DNA of 64,000 nt from Linnemannia hyalina (Eukaryota; Mortierellomycota; Mortierellomycetes; Mortierellales; Mortierellaceae): the NCBI GenBank assembly GCA_019671135.1, contig JAHRHY010000010.1:62001-126000 (forward strand). Reading direction: 5' to 3'. The translations under genes and the position numbers were made by a program. Position 1 is the stretch's first letter, and each line of letters opens with the position of its first letter. A model generated the notes under the pieces. It had not been told where the DNA came from, did not search any database, and worked only from the letters and a program-made list of their open reading frames with translations. Positions 3,449 through 13,188 of the stretch are shown here, piece by piece.

Positions 3449-3466
3449 TCCAGGACTTGATCGTCG
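3421..3466 (+). promoter_or_regulatory. Programmed -1 ribosomal frameshift site
   Basis: The heptamer GGGAAAA (3421-3427) is in the exact register G|GGA|AAA relative to the gag frame, which is the canonical X XXY YYZ form. A 5-nt spacer (3428-3432) is followed by a perfect 8-bp stem, CGACGATC (3433-3440) with GATCGTCG (3459-3466), enclosing 18 nt that include the gag stop codon. The pol frame is -1 to gag and is open from 3409, so the two frames overlap by 40 nt around this site. Heptamer, spacer length, stem and overlap all agree. Confidence 0.85.
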
Positions 3467-6400
3467 ACGTTCCCTCCCTTTCTCCTCTGGACAAAGGGAG
3501 TGTTTCCTTACCAGAGTTAAGTTACAGTTCCAAGAATAAAAATTCTGCTATCAAAAACACTCCCCCCTCTGTATCCATTATTCGCACTACCACATCCGCA
3601 CCTCGTAGCCTACACAAACTCTCCTTCTCTCCTCCTCCACTCTCCCTTTTTCCCTCATCCATCCCTGCCTCGCCTCGTACTCCCTCCTCAATTGCCATCG
3701 ACTCGACCACCACTGCCCCCAACACTCACTCCACCACGGTACCCTTTGACGATGAGTTACAACTCACCGACGACGTATCTGATACCTCGCCTGTTGGTCT
3801 TAGCCCATCAGAAGAAGTGGACCTGGACCCACTCTCCTCTCCTGCTGCTTTAGACCAACCCATGTCCAAGCGCAGGACCAAACGCTTGCGACACAAATCC
3901 GTCCGTCTGCACGCTTTCACGGCTGAGAAAGCCTCCCGTACACTCTTGTCGTTTATTGGTAATGTGGCTGGTGCCCCTGCGCGTATTTTAATCGATTGCG
4001 GTGCGGAAGGGAACGTCATCAGTTCTTCTTTTTGCAAACAACACTCCCTCACTCGCACTCCTGGCCCCTCCATCCCCATCATCCTTCCAAACGGTTCCTC
4101 TTCCATTTCATCATCCACCTCCACCTTTACCATCGACCGCGACCACTACTCCGACAAACTGGAAGCACTCATTTACCCCCTCTCCAACTACGACCTCATC
4201 CTTGGAAAACCCTGGCTAACGACCATCAACCCTTTCATCAACTGGCGAAACAACGACCTTCACTTCACCCACAATGGACACACTGTTCTCTGGCGCTGTC
4301 GTGGTGCCAACGCCAACTCCATCTCCGCTCGCACACAAGGGAAACTCCTCTCTCACCTTCACTTTCACTCCCTTGCTACCCAACCTGGAAACGCTGTCTA
4401 CCTCGCCCTCGTCAACATCGCTAAAAAGACCAACGACAACAACAGTAATGACAACAAACCGACCTCCCCTCCACTCTCACCCGACATTCACAACATCGTC
4501 CACAACGAGTTCCCCGACGTTTTCCCTTCCTCCCTCCCCTCTGGCCTTCCCCCTGACAGAGGCGATGCAATGAAGATCGAAACTGATCCGAGCGCTGATC
4601 CCCCCTTTCGCCCTGTTATACGTCTCTCGATTGCTGAATTGGATGAACTAAGGAAGCAACTCGACGACCTACTTGGCAAAGGCTTTATCAAACCCTCTAC
4701 CTCCCCTTATGGTGCCCCTGTATTGTTTGTGAAAAAGAAGGATGGTTCCTTGCGTATGTGTGTTGATTACAGAGGGTTAAACCGGATTACAAAAAAGAAC
4801 AGACACCCCCTTCCCCGCATTGATGAACTTATCGACCGTTTCCGCGGGGCACGCTACTTTACCAAACTTGACCTCCTCTCCGGTTACCATCAGCAACGTA
4901 TAGCAGAAGAGGACACACACAAGACAGCCTTCCGTTGCCGCTACGGCCATTTCGAATTTAATGTGGTCCCTTTCGGGTTAACGAATGCACCGGCGTCCTT
5001 CTCCAATATGATGCTACGAGTATTAGACCCTGTTCTCGACAAGTGGGTTGTTGTTTACCTCGACGACATTCTTATCTACTCGCGCACCGAGGCCGAACAT
5101 CTACAACATCTCCGATCCGTCCTCACGCTCCTCCGCAAGTACGGTCTCTACGCCAAGTTGAGCAAGTGCTCCTTTATGCAGAAAGAGACCGAGTTCCTCG
5201 GCCACGTCATCTCCAAGGACGGTATCCATACGAGCGGCGGTCTCGTTCGTGCCATCCGTGAATGGCCCCGTCCCCAGAAGCAGAAAGATGTTCAGCAGTT
5301 TGTTGGTCTTGCACAGTTCTATCATCAGTACATCGCTAACTTTGCCTCGATCGCCCTACCGTTGACCGCTCTCTTAGGTGAAGGCGTTCCTTTCTCTTGG
5401 TCTCAGGAGCAGGAAGTAGCGTTTACGACTCTGAAGGAGGCCATCAGTAAAGCACCTGTTCTACGTATCTTCGACCCCGACCTTCTAACAACCGTCGAAA
5501 CCGATGCCTCCGGCTTTGCTCTCGGTGCCGTTCTCTTTCAGACCGATGAGCATGGCGAGTCGCGCCCCGTCGCCTTCACCTCCCGCAAGCTGAACTCTGC
5601 CGAACGCAACTACCCAACACACGAACAGGAACTGTTGGCTGTTGTACATGCATTGAAGACATGGCGCTACTATCTGGACGGATCCCACTTCATCGTATAC
5701 ACCGACCATGCCACCCTCCAACACTTCCCCACTCAACCCAAACTCACCCGCCGTCAGGCCCGCTGGATGGAACTGTTGCAGGAATACAACTTCACCTTCA
5801 AGTACAAGAAAGGAGCCGACAACATTGTCCCAGATGCCCTGTCTCGCCGACCGGACCATAGAGAGATTAACACACTCTCAGTACAGCTCGACCCCAGGCT
5901 CCGGCAGCGCCTGATGGATGGTTACAAAGAGGATCACCGCCTCAAACCGATCTATGAAAGCTGCCTCCAGGGAAGTCCACCGTCTAATTACTCTCTTGTT
6001 GATGGTGTTCTTTGCATTCAACGTAATGATCTTTTACTTGTTTGTATCCCCTCGAACTCTGACCTTCGGCTTTCTCTTCTTCACGATGCACACGACTCCG
6101 CTATAGCTGGTCACTTCGGTTTCGAGAAGACGTACGGTCATCTCCACTCGCGGTTCTTCTGGCCATCTATGGCGAAGGACACCCGGCTGTATGTGCAGAC
6201 CTGTGAGTCGTGCCAAAGGACTAAGCCCAGCAACCAACCACCTGCTGGCCTCCTCCAGCCCCTACCCATTCCCGATCGACCCTGGCAAACGGTGACAATG
6301 GACTTTGTCGGCCCCCTACCCAAGACCCCACGCGGCTTTGACTCCATTACGGTCTTTGTTGACAAACTCACAAAGCAAGTGCACTTTGCCCCCTGCCACA

Positions 6401-7365
6401 CCACCGACTCCGCCTCGCAAGTTGCACGCATTTTTTTCGACCATGTTTTCCGCTTGCACGGCATGCCAACCACCATTGTCTCCGACCGCGATACCAAGTT
6501 CACGAGCCGCTTTTGGAAAGAATTGAGCCGTCTGATGGACGTCCACCTTGCCATGTCGACTGCCTTCCACCCTCAGACCGATGGCCAGACCGAGCGTGCC
6601 AACCGCACCCTTATCACCATGCTCCGTAACTTTGTCGACCAACGGCAGTCTAACTGGGACCTCTTACTTTCCGCCGCCGAATTTGCCACGAACAACGCCA
6701 CCAATGCCTCCACTGGAGTCTCCCCGTTCTTCTTGAACTCCGGAGCCCATCCCAACATGCCCATGTCATTGTTGACCCCTACTCCCGGCCCCAACCCATC
6801 GGTTAACGAGTTCGTGCAATCTCGAAGCGAAGCCCTCACCCTCGCTAAGGAGTCCCTTGCTGCCGCCCAAGAACGTCAAGCAGCCAACGCCGACATCCAT
6901 CGGCGAGAGCATGATTTCAAGGTTGGTGACCACGTTCTCCTTAACCTTGAGAATATCACCTTACCCTCGGACCGCACCCGCACGTCGCAGAAACTCTTGG
7001 CTCGCTTTGCCGGCCCCCACACCATTGTTGAACAGCTGTCCCCGGTCTCCTTCCGCCTTGATCTTCCACCGTCCATGAAGATTCACCCCGTCTTCCACGT
7101 CGACCGATTCCGACGCTACCAACCATCACCTGCGACGCTAGGACCAAGAACACCAGCACGGCCACCACCGGTTATCGTTGAAGACGAGGAAGAGTATGAG
7201 GTCGAGGCCATTGCAGATCATAGGAAGGTTAACAACAACATGGAGTACCTTCTACAATGGCAAGGATACCCGCGCGAGGACTGGACATGGGAACCAGAGA
7301 GTGAACTGGCACACTGTAAGGACATCCTCAACAAGTACAAGCGCGACCATGGCCTTAGGACTTAG
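3427..7365 (+). CDS. Pol polyprotein: protease, reverse transcriptase, RNase H, integrase, chromodomain
   Basis: About 1310 residues, translated by -1 frameshift from gag; no ATG is needed. Order: a Ser/Thr/Pro-rich linker; a retropepsin-like protease with LIDCGAEGNVI at about 3988-4020 (DCG in place of the commoner DSG); reverse transcriptase with YLDDILIYS at about 5056; RNase H with TDASGFALG at about 5500; and integrase. The integrase has an HHCC zinc domain at about 6085-6230 (H-x-H then CESC), catalytic Asp in TMDF (about 6297), Asp in VSDRDTKF (about 6478) and Glu in TDGQTERAN (about 6590). A C-terminal chromodomain, YLLQWQGYPREDWTWEPE, lies at about 7246-7300 and would bind histone H3 methyl-lysine to direct integration. 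All catalytic residues are present and there are no stops. The stop TAG at 7363-7365 abuts the insertion point of the nested element; the reconstructed empty site keeps the same stop. Confidence 0.95.
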   Translation, partial: SLRRSGLVQDLIVDVPSLSPLDKGSVSLPELSYSSKNKNSAIKNTPPSVSIIRTTTSAPRSLHKLSFSPPPLSLFPSSIPASPRTPSSIAIDSTTTAPNTHSTTVPFDDELQLTDDVSDTSPVGLSPSEEVDLDPLSSPAALDQPMSKRRTKRLRHKSVRLHAFTAEKASRTLLSFIGNVAGAPARILIDCGAEGNVISSSFCKQHSLTRTPGPSIPIILPNGSSSISSSTSTFTIDRDHYSDKLEALIYPLSNYDLILGKPWLTTINPFINWRNNDLHFTHNGHTVLWRCRGANANSISARTQGKLLSHLHFHSLATQPGNAVYLALVNIAKKTNDNNSNDNKPTSPPLSPDIHNIVHNEFPDVFPSSLPSGLPPDRGDAMKIETDPSADPPFRPVIRLSIAELDELRKQLDDLLGKGFIKPSTSPYGAPVLFVKKKDGSLRMCVDYRGLNRITKKNRHPLPRIDELIDRFRGARYFTKLDLLSGYHQQRIAEEDTHKTAFRCRYGHFEFNVVPFGLTNAPASFSNMMLRVLDPVLDKWVVVYLDDILIYSRTEAEHLQHLRSVLTLLRKYGLYAKLSKCSFMQKETEFLGHVISKDGIHTSGGLVRAIREWPRPQKQKDVQQFVGLAQFYHQYIANFASIALPLTALLGEGVPFSWSQEQEVAFTTLKEAISKAPVLRIFDPDLLTTVETDASGFALGAVLFQTDEHGESRPVAFTSRKLNSAERNYPTHEQELLAVVHALKTWRYYLDGSHFIVYTDHATLQHFPTQPKLTRRQARWMELLQEYNFTFKYKKGADNIVPDALSRRPDHREINTLSVQLDPRLRQRLMDGYKEDHRLKPIYESCLQGSPPSNYSLVDGVLCIQRNDLLLVCIPSNSDLRLSLLHDAHDSAIAGHFGFEKTYGHLHSRFFWPSMAKDTRLYVQTCESCQRTKPSNQPPAGLLQPLPIPDRPWQTVTMDFVGPLPKTPRGFDSITVFVDKLTKQVHFAPCHTTDSASQVARIFFDHVFRLHGMPTTIVSDRDTKFTSRFWKELSRLMDVHLAMSTAFHPQTDGQTERANRTLITMLRNFVDQRQSNWDLLLSAAEFATNNATNASTGVSPFFLNSGAHPNMPMSLLTPTPGPNPSVNEFVQSRSEALTLAKESLAAAQERQAANADIHRREHDFKVGDHVLLNLENITLPSDRTRTSQKLLARFAGPHTIVEQLSPVSFRLDLPPSMKIHPVFHVDRFRRYQPSPATLGPRTPARPPPVIVEDEEEYEVEAIADHRKVNNNMEYLLQWQGYPREDWTWEPESELAHCKDILNKYKRDHGLRT

Positions 7366-7860
7366 CAGCCCCTTCATGTGCAGAGGATATAAAAAGGCAT
7401 ATAAAAAATATCCAAAGCCCAAGGAACGGAGTGTTTACTTCCATAACTGACATATCTCTTCATAGTGGGCAACAGAACACAGAATAAAATAGCAATAGAC
7501 AGCACATGTTTTTTTAAAATGTAATCTCTCCCCTGTATTTCGCCCCAAAGATACAGTTGAGAGTACAAGTGCTTTAGATGATGACATACAAGAACTACTC
7601 TGGCGAATCTTGCAGTGAGGGTTACAGGTTAATAGTAGATGGACATATTCAAGAGTGTGGTGTGCGAAAAATAAGAAGACTTTGTTGTTTGGAGAATAGG
7701 TTGGTGTTTAGTAGGATAGTTAAACAAAAAATGTTACAATGGTTGTCTTATATGCTTGGTATCATATATACATTCTCATCCCATAGTCGCTATGGATATT
7801 GTCGAGATCTACAGAGATGTAACAAACACCATATGATAACTTGGACCTGAAAGGCCTCCT
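7363..7860. repeat. Left long direct repeat of the nested element
   Basis: A 498-bp block identical by eye to 12675-13172, same orientation, constant offset 5312. The element-specific part is about 7365-7859. Each copy on its own begins GCAGCCCCTTC and ends GAAAGGCCTCC, so each is bounded by the same imperfect inverted termini and looks like a small non-autonomous transposon. It contains TATA-like strings (TATAAAAAGG at 7388). Only the outer flanks form a duplication; the inner flanks (TAG at 7860 and GTA before 12677) do not match. Confidence 0.9.
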
Positions 7861-7905
7861 AGGTGAATGTTTTAAAAAAATATGGGTAATGCAATAATGG
7901 TGAGG

Positions 7906-8144
7906 GTGCATGCATTGTGGAACGTCTCAGATGAAGTTATCGTGGTTTTTATAATGTTTGATGTAACATACTTTGTAGGAAGTTACGATTGTTATAATAT
8001 TTGTTGATATGCGGCCTCCTATACAGATCGTTGGTAAACATGCCAATGGTGAAAAAATAAATGTCATAAAGAGTGCATGCATTGTAGAACATATTAGATA
8101 TAGTTATTGTAATTTTCGTAATGTTAAATATAAGTAGATTGTGG
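7906..8144. repeat. Imperfect duplicated block downstream of the 753-aa gene
   Basis: Two diverged copies of a segment of about 73 bp, 7906-7979 and 8073-8144, both starting GTGCATGCATTGT and continuing in alignment (GTTAT..T...TTT..TAATGTT). A shorter pair, TTTTAAAAAA.ATGGGTAAT at about 7870 and 8203, lies outside them. The block is in the 3' flank of the transposon gene and could be subterminal transposase-binding repeats. Confidence 0.5.
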
Positions 8145-8332
8145 ATAAACACCACTGTGATCAAGAAAGAAATATTGTAAATTGTGCAAAGGATGGTGGA
8201 AGTTTTTAAAAAGATGGGTAATATATCTGGTGAATCTCATTGGAAGGGACGAGGATAATATTACATGTGTATTCCATATATAAAAGCTTTATTTGTGCAA
8301 GTGGTATATCTACAGTTTTTAAAATTCTTGAT

Positions 8333-10594
8333 CTACTCTTCTGCGGTCTCAAATGTTACTTCAAGAGGCTTCTTTTCTTCCATCGTACTTTTCTCTTTGG
8401 CTTGAATACTATCTAATACACTTTGCACTATGGTTTTTCTGTTGTTAGATCCTTCTTTTGCAAACTTACATAATATATCGGAATGTGGTTCGCGGGAACC
8501 AAACTTATCCATGTGCCATGTTTCGTAGTTGGAATAATCTTTCTCCAACAAACCTAGGTGAAAAATTAGTTCTTTTTCTTCTGCATTACCATCTGCCGAA
8601 ACGTATTCCTCGCGGAGTTCTTCTTCGATAGCTGTTATTTTGCTATATACTTCTCCCATTGCCTTCAGAAAATCATGATGGTCTTTTGTAGTGTAAACAC
8701 TTGAGGCATTCACATTTTCGCTTTCCATAGGTCCACCATCTTCTAGAGTTTTCTTAACATCCGACTCTTGCACCTCATCATCTACTTTTTCTACAAGTTC
8801 ATCTAAAGTTTCCTTAATATTCGACTCTTGCACCTCATCATCTATTTTTTCTACCGGTTCACCTTTCTCTGTCGACCTATCCTTAGACCATTGTGGCTTA
8901 AAGCCCATAGCAAAGATCTTTTCTTTTTCCTTTTGGTTAAGATTATCATAGTCGACATTCTCTGCACCAATGTGGTCATCAGTCACCAAGCCAACTACAA
9001 TGTTTTGCTTGCGGATCTTGAGAATGTGCTTTCCATTTACAAGTACATTCTTGGAATACTCCAATTGCTGCTTGTGAAACCTTTTCCATTTCATCTTGGA
9101 TATATCTGTCGGTCCTTCCACTGGTAGTTCCTCTTCTACTTCGACCTCCTCGTTGAAAAGCATCTTTCTCTCTTCATCAGACATTTCTTGAAGTTTCATC
9201 TTGCTAAGCATGGAGCGTTCCAAGATATCCATCTCTGGAACATCACCACCGCCACGCAGATGATCAAGCGTAAACAGGCCAACGTATGTATTCTTTCCAC
9301 ATAGCTTGACAATGTACTTAGCCTTCATCGTAAAGTTAGTTGCATACTCAAGCATGTCGTTATTAGGATGAACCATCCATCCTCCATCCTTTGCAAGTGG
9401 TATGTCTTTCTCTGATCTAATGTTACGCACCGTTGTGGCCAGTGCAAATGTGTGTTCATCTTTTTCATCCTTAGAAACATCTACATTAGAAGATGGCTCT
9501 GCATTTTTGGGCATCTCTGAATGCCTTTTCTTTCGAGAAGTCTTCTTCTCATCATCCTTAGATGGCTTTTTATGAGATAGTTTTTCATCAGGGTTATCCT
9601 TAGAGGTATCATCTCCAGATTCTACATCAGGTCTGTTATTGGACTTGCCATCATCAGAGTCTTTATCTTTAGAGGAATCATCCTCAGAGTCAGCATTATC
9701 AGACGTATCACCATCATCTGTATCATCGTCAGAATTCTCATCAGCAGAAGACTCTTCTATTTTTTCTACATCTGCTGAAGTTGCCTCTTGAAGACCCATC
9801 TTGGCCAATATGCGTGCCTCTTTCTCAGATATTTCTGGCGCAGGGAGATTCTTGCCCATGAGCTTAGGTGGACACAATGCAATGTAGAGATTCTTTTCCT
9901 TTAGCCTAATAATGTACTTGCCATTTACAGTAAAGCTTTTTGCATACAGGAAAGCTGGATTAGTTGCATAACGCGTCCATATACATGTATTAGCGAGTGG
10001 TACATTTTTCTTGGACGTTATGTCAACTACCTTTGGACTCAACGGAAAGGAGACGGCAATTATATCTTCTTCATCATCATCATCGGACGGCTCTTCATCC
10101 GATGACTCCTGCTTGTTTCTCTTTCGCTTCTTTGGTTCTTCATCCTCGGAAGTCATATCGTCATCGGAAGACACAAACTTAGAAGTATGTGTCTTCTTTA
10201 AAGCCTTGGAAGACTTAGTACGCTTGTCGACAGGTGCGTTGTTGTTACTACGTTTTATATAACCTCTATCTTGATCTTGATGACGTCCACAGTATGTTTG
10301 ACCAAGTTTGGCTACACTACCACAATTAGCACCCTTAATAGTTGTGCCTTGACACTTGCGCGCAGGATCGTGGACATAACAATGCATGCCTTCATCATCA
10401 ACTTCCTTCATGCATTTGCGCTTGGACTTGGTGCACTTTTCTCCACAAAAGTAGTATCTCTCTACTTCCTCATCCTCATCAAGCGCCTTAAAGATCTTAT
10501 TTGCATCTTTCTTGTTAAACTCCACTCCCTTCTTAGAGGAGAATGTCTCAAAGGCCTTGGTGATGAGCTCGATTGTAAGCTGAACGTACTTCAT
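8333..10594 (-). CDS. 753-aa transposon accessory protein: Cys/His modules plus three copies of an unknown domain
   Basis: Single open frame, start ATG at 10594. Residues 1-45 are charged and helical. Residues 50-105 hold two tandem zinc-binding-like modules: C54-x6-C61-x10-C72-x2-H75 and C81-x9-C91-x10-C102-x2-H105. A nuclear-localisation-like stretch, KKRKRNK (about 155-161), sits in an acidic Ser/Asp region. Three diverged copies of a domain of about 75 residues follow (about 190-270, 395-470, 497-566). Each has a pattern of A-x-x-F-T-x-x-x-K-Y-I-x-x-L, then N-x-Y-x-x-L, and ends in a Lys-Met-x-Leu-Gln-like helix. Long Asp/Ser/Lys linkers separate them. Near 581-618 a 19-residue segment is directly repeated (VEKIDDEVQES...). 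The C-terminus is helical. I do not know the family. Such C-x-C-x-C-x2-H modules occur in DNA-binding and viral proteins, so a DNA-binding partner of the transposase is a reasonable inference. A TATAAATA box lies about 215 bp upstream. Confidence 0.75.
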   Translation of the reverse strand: MKYVQLTIELITKAFETFSSKKGVEFNKKDANKIFKALDEDEEVERYYFCGEKCTKSKRKCMKEVDDEGMHCYVHDPARKCQGTTIKGANCGSVAKLGQTYCGRHQDQDRGYIKRSNNNAPVDKRTKSSKALKKTHTSKFVSSDDDMTSEDEEPKKRKRNKQESSDEEPSDDDDEEDIIAVSFPLSPKVVDITSKKNVPLANTCIWTRYATNPAFLYAKSFTVNGKYIIRLKEKNLYIALCPPKLMGKNLPAPEISEKEARILAKMGLQEATSADVEKIEESSADENSDDDTDDGDTSDNADSEDDSSKDKDSDDGKSNNRPDVESGDDTSKDNPDEKLSHKKPSKDDEKKTSRKKRHSEMPKNAEPSSNVDVSKDEKDEHTFALATTVRNIRSEKDIPLAKDGGWMVHPNNDMLEYATNFTMKAKYIVKLCGKNTYVGLFTLDHLRGGGDVPEMDILERSMLSKMKLQEMSDEERKMLFNEEVEVEEELPVEGPTDISKMKWKRFHKQQLEYSKNVLVNGKHILKIRKQNIVVGLVTDDHIGAENVDYDNLNQKEKEKIFAMGFKPQWSKDRSTEKGEPVEKIDDEVQESNIKETLDELVEKVDDEVQESDVKKTLEDGGPMESENVNASSVYTTKDHHDFLKAMGEVYSKITAIEEELREEYVSADGNAEEKELIFHLGLLEKDYSNYETWHMDKFGSREPHSDILCKFAKEGSNNRKTIVQSVLDSIQAKEKSTMEEKKPLEVTFETAEE

Positions 10595-10801
10595 GTTTTT
10601 GGATATGAATAATATGGATTGTACTTGTGGTATGGTGGGTGTGAATGAGTTTTCAGTTTATGTGTGGTAGATTGCAGCTGCTTAGTACACTGATATAAAG
10701 AATTGCAATAAAAGATGGTTGTATAGGTATGGATGGTTGTATAGATATGGATAATTGTTGGTTGGTTACTAGATAAAGATTAAGCAAGAGGGAAGTGGAC
10801 T

Positions 10802-10816
10802 CCTTTATTTATACTA
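10802..10816 (-). promoter_or_regulatory. TATA-like box for the 753-aa gene
   Basis: On the minus strand this reads GTATAAATAAAG, about 210 bp upstream of the ATG at 10594. The spacing allows a leader of roughly 180 nt. Confidence 0.4.
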
Positions 10817-10851
10817 ATTCAGGAACACTGCCACAATGGACATTAATAGCG

Positions 10852-11023
10852 CTTGCTTATTAGCACTGCTTGGCGCTTAGTAACAAAAGAGTTTTAAAAA
10901 GGCATCTAAGTGGTTAATAATGTAGTGTTCCTCGTATGACGTAGATCTTGCTTATTAAGACTGCTTGGCATTAAAGACGGGGTTTAAAAATGGTTAAGAA
11001 TGTAGTATTATTTTATGACGTAG
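10852..11023 (-). promoter_or_regulatory. Tandem promoter repeats each ending TGACGTAG
   Basis: Two imperfect copies, 10852-10944 and 10947-11023, share CTTGCTTATTA..ACTGCTTGGC at one end and TGACGTAG (10937-10944, 11016-11023) at the other. TGACGT is the half-site of CRE/ATF-type bZIP factors. They lie between the two transposon genes, upstream of the 753-aa gene, and could be an enhancer or transposase-binding array. Confidence 0.5.
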
Positions 11024-11225
11024 GTTTGTACATGTGTTTATCCTCTGTGTTAAATAAAAAGGAATGCTGTAGAATAGCATAGAATAGCATCCGATCTACT
11101 ACAATAATACCATGGCTTTTAATAATAGATACCGGTGCATATTAGCGTCTTGGCAGTTAATACCGTATCTTAAAGCTGACTAAATAGGCCATGTATGTCT
11201 ATTCTTTTAAAAACCTGCAATAAGT

Positions 11226-12605
11226 CTACAGATTACCATTAACATCCATTTGTCGCTTCGTACCTCTAAGCTCAATGGAAAGACCGGGTTGCATTATTAC
11301 TGCTTGATCCATTGGTGTGTCCTCATCAACATTAACATCAACATCACCATGAAGATTAATACCAAGAAATTTGTTCTGGAGTTGTGCCATTGTATTTCCA
11401 TCCTCCACTAGCGCACCAACATCAACATATCCCATTGGTTGCTCAACGTCGTTCTCTGTCGTCGGATACTCGAATCCTTCGCGAAGCCAAGCTGTATGAA
11501 TTGGTTCTGCAGAAATCTTCAACAAAGCAACCATCTTTTTCATGTTTAAGAGTAACAAAGATAACTTCAACTGCAAATTATATGTTTGTTTCTTATCCAC
11601 CAACACAGGAGTACGGTTGTTGTGTTTCTCAAATGTGGAACCAAGGTCTGCAAACAGAGATTCCATCTGCGAGCGGAAACTACCAAAGGTGGTATTGTAT
11701 AACGCTTCTTCCTGTGTAAGTTCCTTGTTCTTCTGTTTACGGTATGGATGAGCGAAATTTTGGACTTTAAGAGTATCAGACTCATCTATAAGCCTCCTTA
11801 AGAACTGTGGATACCCTCCATCGAGAGCAATGCAATCCATCTCATGCACTCTCTTGTCCAACTTCATCGTTAGCAGCATTGTTCCATCAGCATTGTTCTT
11901 GCAAGATGCAGATTTGGAGACAAATAAGGCCATGCCATTACAATCCATTGCTACCTGTGTGCGTAACCCTGACTTTTTCAGCTTGTAAGAGTACATATCA
12001 GCACTGCTCTCACCTTTGTATGTTGCTCTTGTATCATGACCATCAAGATGCAATGTAACATGCTTAAATAATGGAGGATTCTTTTCCTTTGCAGACAATA
12101 GGCGTATTTTAATTGTGGAGAACATTGTTGCAATACAGTTGGTGATGTACTTGTTGTGCAAAGTATATTCTTTCTTATAAAACACAGAGTGCATTGCATG
12201 AAAACTACTTTTTGGCATGTGTGGTTCCATTGCTTCCATAGACAGTCCTTTGACAAGATGATAGAGCATTAAAAGACCTTTCTCCACTTCTTTGTATGGA
12301 CCAGGATACTTAACCTTTGGCCAGATGTCAACAAGAAAGAAGTACACTGGAATAGGACCAAGGCGTCGATTTAGGGTTTCTTTTATTTCTGGCATATACC
12401 CAATTTCCTTGCTTACAGTACGATGATTATTACGTGGTGTAATTGTTGGCCATCCAGCGTTGAGGAAAGTCCAATGGTCATCAAGCAGTTGTTGGAAGTG
12501 TTTTGTTAGATCCATAATAATATTTATGTATTGGATTGTCATGACGTTAACCAACAATAACAATTTTTTAAAAAGGCTTATACTTAACTGCATACACAAC
12601 AGCAT
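11226..12605 (-). CDS. DDE transposase, IS5/PIF-Harbinger-like (DDE_Tnp_4 type)
   Basis: The frame is 459 residues from 12605. The first 30 residues are hydrophobic and unlike a transposase, so the ATG at 12515 (MDLTKHFQQ, residue 31) is the likelier start. The catalytic core follows the DDE_Tnp_4 layout: D188 in HLDGHD; a YSYKLKKSGLRTQVAMD stretch equivalent to the usual Y-x-x-K-x-G-x-x-x-Q-x-x-x-D; D262 in ALDGGY; and E315 in SQMESLFADLG. Spacings are 74 and 53 residues. These residues would cut and join DNA ends in cut-and-paste transposition. The frame is intact and its ends are TTA-flanked, so activity is plausible. An N-terminal DNA-binding helix is not obvious; the partner protein encoded downstream may supply that role, as in Harbinger elements with a second Myb-like protein. 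The family assignment is by motif only. Confidence 0.75.
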   Translation of the reverse strand: MLLCMQLSISLFKKLLLLVNVMTIQYINIIMDLTKHFQQLLDDHWTFLNAGWPTITPRNNHRTVSKEIGYMPEIKETLNRRLGPIPVYFFLVDIWPKVKYPGPYKEVEKGLLMLYHLVKGLSMEAMEPHMPKSSFHAMHSVFYKKEYTLHNKYITNCIATMFSTIKIRLLSAKEKNPPLFKHVTLHLDGHDTRATYKGESSADMYSYKLKKSGLRTQVAMDCNGMALFVSKSASCKNNADGTMLLTMKLDKRVHEMDCIALDGGYPQFLRRLIDESDTLKVQNFAHPYRKQKNKELTQEEALYNTTFGSFRSQMESLFADLGSTFEKHNNRTPVLVDKKQTYNLQLKLSLLLLNMKKMVALLKISAEPIHTAWLREGFEYPTTENDVEQPMGYVDVGALVEDGNTMAQLQNKFLGINLHGDVDVNVDEDTPMDQAVIMQPGLSIELRGTKRQMDVNGNL

Positions 12606-12674
12606 GTAGGATGGTATCTATCATACAGCAAGCACATAGTTGAGAATACAAATATATTTTTATATTTTATTCGG

Positions 12675-13172
12675 TAGCAGCCCCTTCATGTGCAGAGGAT
12701 ATAAAAAGGCATATAAAAAATATCCAAAGCCCAAGGAACGGAGTGTTTACTTCCATAACTGACATATCTCTTCATAGTGGGCAACAGAACACAGAATAAA
12801 ATAGCAATAGACAGCACATGTTTTTTTAAAATGTAATCTCTCCCCTGTATTTCGCCCCAAAGATACAGTTGAGAGTACAAGTGCTTTAGATGATGACATA
12901 CAAGAACTACTCTGGCGAATCTTGCAGTGAGGGTTACAGGTTAATAGTAGATGGACATATTCAAGAGTGTGGTGTGCGAAAAATAAGAAGACTTTGTTGT
13001 TTGGAGAATAGGTTGGTGTTTAGTAGGATAGTTAAACAAAAAATGTTACAATGGTTGTCTTATATGCTTGGTATCATATATACATTCTCATCCCATAGTC
13101 GCTATGGATATTGTCGAGATCTACAGAGATGTAACAAACACCATATGATAACTTGGACCTGAAAGGCCTCCT
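12675..13172. repeat. Right long direct repeat of the nested element
   Basis: Identical by eye to 7363-7860 and in the same orientation. It lies upstream of the transposase gene, so its minus-strand A/T-rich left end and the TATAAAAATATATT stretch just inside (about 12650-12668) could provide the promoter for leftward transcription, in the manner of an LTR. Confidence 0.9.
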
Positions 13173-13188
13173 TAGCGGATTTTTTTTT

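Follow-up and report, generated by a model that had tools for sequence, protein, structure and literature searches.

Introduction

Long direct repeats at the ends of DNA transposons are known from KolobokP, a group of composite-like DDE transposons of seven animal phyla (Kojima and Bao 2022, PMC9587614), in which they are called 'unlike any other DNA transposons' and how the layout stays intact is left open. The PHIS superfamily comprises PIF/Harbinger, NuwaII, Pangu and others, and its groups are defined by their target site duplications (PMC4482050). In Coe1 of Beta vulgaris a CACTA-type transposase gene lies between putative long terminal repeats (LTRs), and its authors leave open a coincidental merging (PMC2426827). 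Here, we describe an element from a 64,000-nucleotide stretch of the genome of the fungus Linnemannia hyalina (assembly GCA_019671135.1, contig JAHRHY010000010.1, positions 62,001 to 126,000), called the window in the following, in which two identical direct repeats flank an internal region (INT) with a transposase gene. For the repeats we adopt the term long terminal direct repeat (LTDR) from the KolobokP paper (PMC9587614). The element is quite probably a composite-like DNA transposon of the structure LTDR-INT-LTDR, run by a predicted PIF/Harbinger-like (PHIS) DDE transposase by the steps proposed in the Discussion.

Results

In the window, the left target site duplication TTA (7362-7364) is followed by the 5' LTDR of 495 bp (7365-7859, plus strand), an INT of 4,817 bp (7860-12676), the 3' LTDR, again of 495 bp (12677-13171, plus strand), and the right TTA (13172-13174). 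The two LTDRs have the same orientation and are 100% identical over 495 bp. They start with GC(A/G)GCCCCTTCATG and end with TGAAAGGCCTCC, so that each has short imperfect inverted ends of its own: the first 20 bases agree with the reverse complement of the last 20 at 13 of 20 positions, and 20 of 100,000 shuffles were equally good. The longest open reading frame (ORF) listed inside an LTDR has 90 aa, and the transposase is encoded in INT instead, by an uninterrupted ORF of 429 aa (11226-12515, minus strand). A second uninterrupted ORF in INT (8333-10594, minus strand) encodes an accessory protein of 753 aa. The unit lies directly behind the end of a Ty3/gypsy coding region, whose ORF of 1,302 aa (3457-7365, plus strand; as listed, it extends 1 base into the LTDR) hosts the insertion. 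When the flanks of the unit are joined at one TTA, all 189 bases match at 35 of 40 scored places (127 candidates). Since the joined flanks recur elsewhere as an empty site with one TTA, the unit in the window arrived by insertion with duplication of TTA. An earlier interpretation made from the letters of the window (the sequence-only reading) had recognised a DDE transposon framed by identical direct repeats of about 495 bp and nested in a retrotransposon, and had remarked that both ends of each repeat resemble those of a small transposon; the coordinates and the Ty3/gypsy empty site bear out the former, the inverted ends and the solo LTDRs with duplications described below the latter.

The element is a member of a mobile family and not a local accident. 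Exact-pattern searches over the 51.5-Mb genome, each with the reversed pattern as a control that gave zero matches, found 356 LTDRs with both exact ends. The LTDR was joined to the INT start TAGGTG in 117 cases and to the INT end TTCGGTA in 108, and had INT joined on both sides (tandem) in 7. By subtraction, roughly 138 LTDRs are solo or in other settings, a rough figure because the patterns are not strictly nested. Among the 136 matches in the fetched loci, 123 full-length LTDRs were examined: 47 solo, 36 5', 36 3' and 4 tandem. This set is not a random sample: it combines loci fetched earlier with most C1-C10 entries among the 356. 'Solo' means joined to neither of the usual INT ends, and 2 of the 47 (C25:29917 and C25:70914) begin another kind of INT. 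The recurrence of whole units with two repeats and of solo LTDRs with both ends is in line with the composite transposon that had been suggested from the sequence.

Some further observations concern the arrangement of the copies. In the third kind of INT, the LTDRs at C25:29912 and C25:70911 are followed by TAGTAGAGACG and not by TAGGTG; its transposase is about 90% like that of the window at the DNA level. Near the end of C44 (2819084-2850497), solo LTDRs and LTDR-INT junctions repeat every 8.34-8.36 kb or so, which looks like tandem repetition of a unit of 8.35 kb in which they lie. On its contig, each of the seven tandem LTDR junctions lies on the minus strand; as contig orientation is arbitrary, this is probably due to chance.

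Insertion could be followed at both units and solo LTDRs. Matching 3-bp duplications flank 21 of the 27 simple units read at both ends and 36 of the 46 solo LTDRs that were testable at both flanks; shuffles of the latter gave a mean of 4.2 and a maximum of 14 of 46. Two arrays, which account for two of the seven tandem junctions, were read through to either end: C8:813-10819 and C12:1895988-1906612 both have the structure (LTDR-INT)2-LTDR within a single outer duplication, ATT and TTA, respectively. Within the fetched loci, 16 of the 27 units and 19 of the 46 solo LTDRs could be paired with an empty site, and each of these copies has a matching duplication. The identity of the empty sites was 94-100%, save for two solo LTDRs with 89% over 44 bases and 92% over 38 bases; the solo LTDRs C1:53269 and C9:1345201 have common flanks and are not independent cases. 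Many of the empty sites stem from the frequent nesting of units and solo LTDRs in other copies of the family, even in LTDRs (C1:20025, C1:35228, C4:1905094, C10:1272494 and others). The LTDR-INT-LTDR unit thus inserts as a whole. Solo LTDRs may have moved on their own or may have been left behind by recombination; either route leaves the duplication intact. The precise empty sites also point to recent movement, which had been considered, besides gene conversion, from the identity of the repeats.

At the 57 sites with matching duplications, the first position is T in 36, the second A or T in all 57 and the third A in 32, with C before the duplication in 38 and G after it in 35. The target is therefore a C|TWA|G-like site with an A/T-centred duplication of 3 bp. 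Of the TTA or CTTAG duplication named in the sequence-only reading, TTA holds for the unit in the window, while in the family the duplication is not fixed in sequence and is 3 bp long.

Copies of INT that lack LTDRs were looked for at the 5' starts of INT, by comparison of lists by eye. The first 100 of the 118 listed were checked, and 94 adjoin an LTDR with exact ends. In four of the other six, the neighbour is the 3' portion of an LTDR, of which 126-137 bases were read; one abuts another repeat, which also abuts other sequences elsewhere; and in the last, C10:1272411, the neighbour is apparently an LTDR interrupted by a nested solo copy. Hence, there is no clean LTDR-less 5' start among the 100, and excision of LTDRs, as reported for KolobokP (PMC9587614), is not evident here. 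Neither repeat-less copies with ordinary inverted termini nor repeats made merely by local duplication or assembly error, both of which the sequence-only reading had named as fatal to its proposal, were encountered in this genome.

Within a unit, the two LTDRs show concerted evolution. In the 21 units with matching duplications, the LTDR pair was identical in 16 and differed by 1, 1, 2, 3 and 19 bases in the others, a mean of 1.2 differences within units compared to 24.8 between units. The observed sum within units, 26, was reached by none of 100,000 re-pairings, the lowest of which gave 134. A tree keeping 5' and 3' LTDRs apart was rejected by the approximately unbiased (AU) test (p 0.0007; eight sets of identical rows were left free). 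There are two types of LTDR, C (that of the window) and T, which differ in 50 columns, and several units carry C/T recombinant LTDRs with breakpoints that are identical in both LTDRs of the unit. When LTDRs of a wider list were typed by their first 80 bases, the two members had the same type in 56 of 61 pairs at a spacing of 4.6-5.9 kb, compared to a mean of 28.1 and a maximum of 46 in shuffles, which leave kinship among the copies in place.

The LTDRs were also exchanged relative to INT. One T-type INT is 93.8% like the C-type INT across 3.86 kb; by block, the two are 98.8-100% alike in the last 1.4 kb, which includes the transposase gene, and unlike in the first 0.7-1 kb. At the INT end, C8:18832 differs in 50 of 492 LTDR bases but in only 4 of the last 577 bases of INT. 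The opposite end of this unit carries that T-type LTDR again, and the duplication is TTG. C8:5816 has 26 differences in the LTDR versus 2 in the end of INT, and C25:25527 has 51 versus 3. Three of the 15 rows (C18:12448, C25:47939 and C49:2305519; 286-379 differences) were unused in this comparison, their INT end being cut or interrupted. Since the LTDRs differ strongly while the adjoining INT is nearly identical, and both ends of the unit are of the same type, the LTDRs were exchanged as a pair.

The transposase of 429 aa matches the Pfam family DDE_Tnp_4 (E 1.4e-7), which we take to be the PIF/Harbinger domain. DDE_Tnp_4 was found in 28 of 28 aligned transposases, with D158, D232 and E285 invariant, and DDE_Tnp_4 and DDE_Tnp_1 were the sole Pfam transposase matches in the aligned proteins. 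By eye, no conserved C/D..H was found between D232 and E285 in the 28 sequences. The structure model was fair (predicted local distance difference test, pLDDT, 83). Judged from its sequence, the transposase looks PIF/Harbinger-like (PHIS). Named relatives, among the best 120 of 242, are mostly from Mortierella-type fungi, with Apophysomyces among the exceptions. A chromodomain is present in 5 of the 28 aligned transposases, for example from Apophysomyces and Lobosporangium.

The accessory protein had no Pfam match at E <= 1 and hence no match to Myb/SANT, and a His-Me finger nuclease was not recognised in it, either by Pfam or in its structure model, whose overall confidence is low (pLDDT 58). 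The model has three similar beta-alpha modules, and the alignment reveals a conserved Cys/His cluster near the N terminus; the protein is probably DNA-binding. Relatives numbered 13 at E <= 0.001 among 7,999 candidates scored, the named ones from Linnemannia, Mortierella and Podila. 

In further searches, viral contigs gave 3 and 9 pattern matches, none of them a relative. Sequence-profile searches against PDB yielded one match, 9u7t (E 0.0023), in one search and two at E 0.1-0.15 in the other, and a search of NCBIfam gave nothing near a cut-off.

Two more DDE_Tnp_4 families are present in the genome (for example at C24:158547, C24:160561 and C13:775167); among 100 scored of 301 candidates, 65 matches are 75-85% identical to a Linnemannia elongata protein and 35 are at 44%. 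In the first of these families one pair is arranged head to head around a palindromic spacer, and upstream of one copy of the second lie tandem repeats of about 133 bp. One copy of the family termed F3, inspected for 1.1 kb on each side, had no LTDR of the present kind and had tandem repeats upstream.

Discussion

The fungal element shares its layout with KolobokP: LTDR-INT-LTDR units, solo LTDRs and (LTDR-INT)n-LTDR arrays within duplications, LTDRs with short inverted ends of their own (about 450 or 660 bp long in KolobokP), and an INT with a DDE transposase and a second gene (PMC9587614). The 'new class' considered in the sequence-only reading was therefore too strong, since the same layout exists in animals with another transposase. 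Nothing was found in favour of the other part of that idea, that the direct repeats supply promoter and terminator. There are also differences. The fungal transposase belongs to DDE_Tnp_4 and lacks the C/DxxH signature that Kolobok has between the second D and the last E; the termini start with GC and end with CC, compared to 5'-RR and YY-3' in KolobokP; the duplication is 3 bp long and A/T-centred; both genes are on one strand; and the host is a fungus. KolobokP has a His-Me nuclease, whereas none was recognised here, and it shows excision of LTDRs, whereas the fungal family has no LTDR-less 5' end of INT among the 100 listed (PMC9587614).

With PHIS elements, the fungal element has in common a DDE_Tnp_4-type transposase, a second ORF, short inverted ends and a 3-bp duplication in an AT-rich site; its C|TWA|G resembles TWA of PIF/Harbinger and C|TNA|G of NuwaII, the same tendency in a looser form (PMC4482050). 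In contrast, the PHIS elements described there have terminal inverted repeats and second ORFs with Myb/SANT (or Yqaj), whereas the fungal element has long direct repeats and no Myb/SANT match (PMC4482050). Coe1 also has a DNA transposase gene between putative LTRs, but these are of 169 bp with 96.4% identity, the transposase is CACTA-type and retrotransposon genes lie inside (PMC2426827). As in bacterial composite transposons, the flanking units each have both transposon ends and lie in direct orientation; unlike there, the transposase is in the middle and not in the flanking units, and the flanking units are homogenised. Among the matches listed from the open-access literature, with most subscription papers and Repbase outside this scope, none reported a PIF/Harbinger-like or fungal DDE element with long direct repeats at its ends.

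How could the two repeats stay identical? We propose that the transposase made from INT would make its cuts at two successive LTDRs, namely at the left end of the first and at the right end of the second. LTDRs that recombine with each other would give rise to solo LTDRs, tandem arrays and, probably, circles with one LTDR, and a unit cut from an array or rebuilt from a circle would carry two copies of one LTDR. As the unit would receive both copies from one LTDR, identical repeats would be regenerated without reverse transcription. We see about an even chance for such a regeneration from arrays or circles. The more inclusive idea, that a PIF/Harbinger-like lineage apart from KolobokP evolved LTR-like repeats that are regenerated in each round from one repeat via LTDR recombination, is tentative, and we put it somewhat below even.

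Several observations weigh against this picture. At six of the 27 simple units the duplications on the two sides do not match (C5:1709165, C6:1795183, C8:30995, C25:20215 and both copies of one C49 segment), and some of these units are probably mispaired or recombinant; C25:20215/25527, with a C-type 5' LTDR, a T-type 3' LTDR and the duplications TTG and ATA, is as expected for a recombinant of two insertions. Ten of the 46 testable solo LTDRs are also unmatched, two of which (C25:29917 and C25:70914) are the LTDRs on another kind of INT. In the wider list, 5 of 61 pairs disagree in type, two of which are oddly spaced (5,489 and 5,766 bp) and have one LTDR in common with a better-spaced pair. 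A Foldseek search against PDB gave no match at E <= 0.001 for the transposase or the accessory protein, and no circle was seen. Finally, in 3 of the 21 LTDR pairs (C2:44648, C8:37329 and C10:1304849) the differences fall at neighbouring diagnostic sites, a pattern that gene conversion would produce; in C10:1304849 all 19 differences are within columns 333-411.

Because the differences in these three pairs are confined to diagnostic sites next to each other or to one tract, gene conversion is a serious rival for the regeneration step. The transposon would be the same and composite-like, its LTDRs would be kept alike solely by conversion after insertion, and arrays and circles would be by-products; the mosaics of two types seen in LTDRs would also fit. 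This may well be so, although we would rate it a little short of an even chance. Against it, up to about 51 bases separate the LTDRs of different units, yet 16 of the 21 pairs show no difference at all, so that conversion would need to be fast and almost complete, and by itself it leaves the arrays within one duplication unexplained.

Alternatively, the composite could have been assembled several times from LTDR-like miniature elements that flanked the genes by chance, with one type of pair each time. Every LTDR does have both ends and occurs solo with duplications, and bacterial composites form in this way (PMC9587614). But the inner junctions are constant (117 of LTDR with TAGGTG and 108 of TTCGGTA with LTDR), with the same first bases in two types of INT, and repeated accidents would yield different ones, which makes this origin very unlikely. 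We regard it as highly improbable, too, that the element is a non-autonomous LTR retrotransposon with an acquired transposase gene, whose copying depends on a reverse transcriptase supplied in trans. The resemblance to LTR elements lies in the identical direct repeats, the solo repeats, the arrays and the likeness of the two repeats of one element. However, the ends are GC...CC rather than TG...CA, the duplications have another length (3 bp), no purine tract precedes the 3' LTDR and, by inspection, neither protein is a reverse transcriptase. In addition, the INT starts of the two types diverge after six bases (TAGGTGAATG and TAGGTGGAAG), so that there is no conserved primer site. That the second repeat was made by an assembly error or a local duplication, which the 100% identity of the repeats might suggest, is refuted, since units with two repeats are found at many other loci, with flanks and duplications of their own and with several LTDR types among them.

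The layout seems to have arisen more than once, since it is known from one animal transposon group with another transposase. That it turns up again in a different kingdom, together with a transposase of a different kind, suggests a recurrent solution. Two marked LTDR types, their recombinants and their exchange in pairs against one INT make the upkeep of repeat identity directly testable in this family. Such elements may be misnamed LTR retrotransposons by automatic annotation. If the proposed regeneration is true, the family would be a DNA-only counterpart of LTR regeneration, without a reverse transcriptase and perhaps without a dedicated nuclease.

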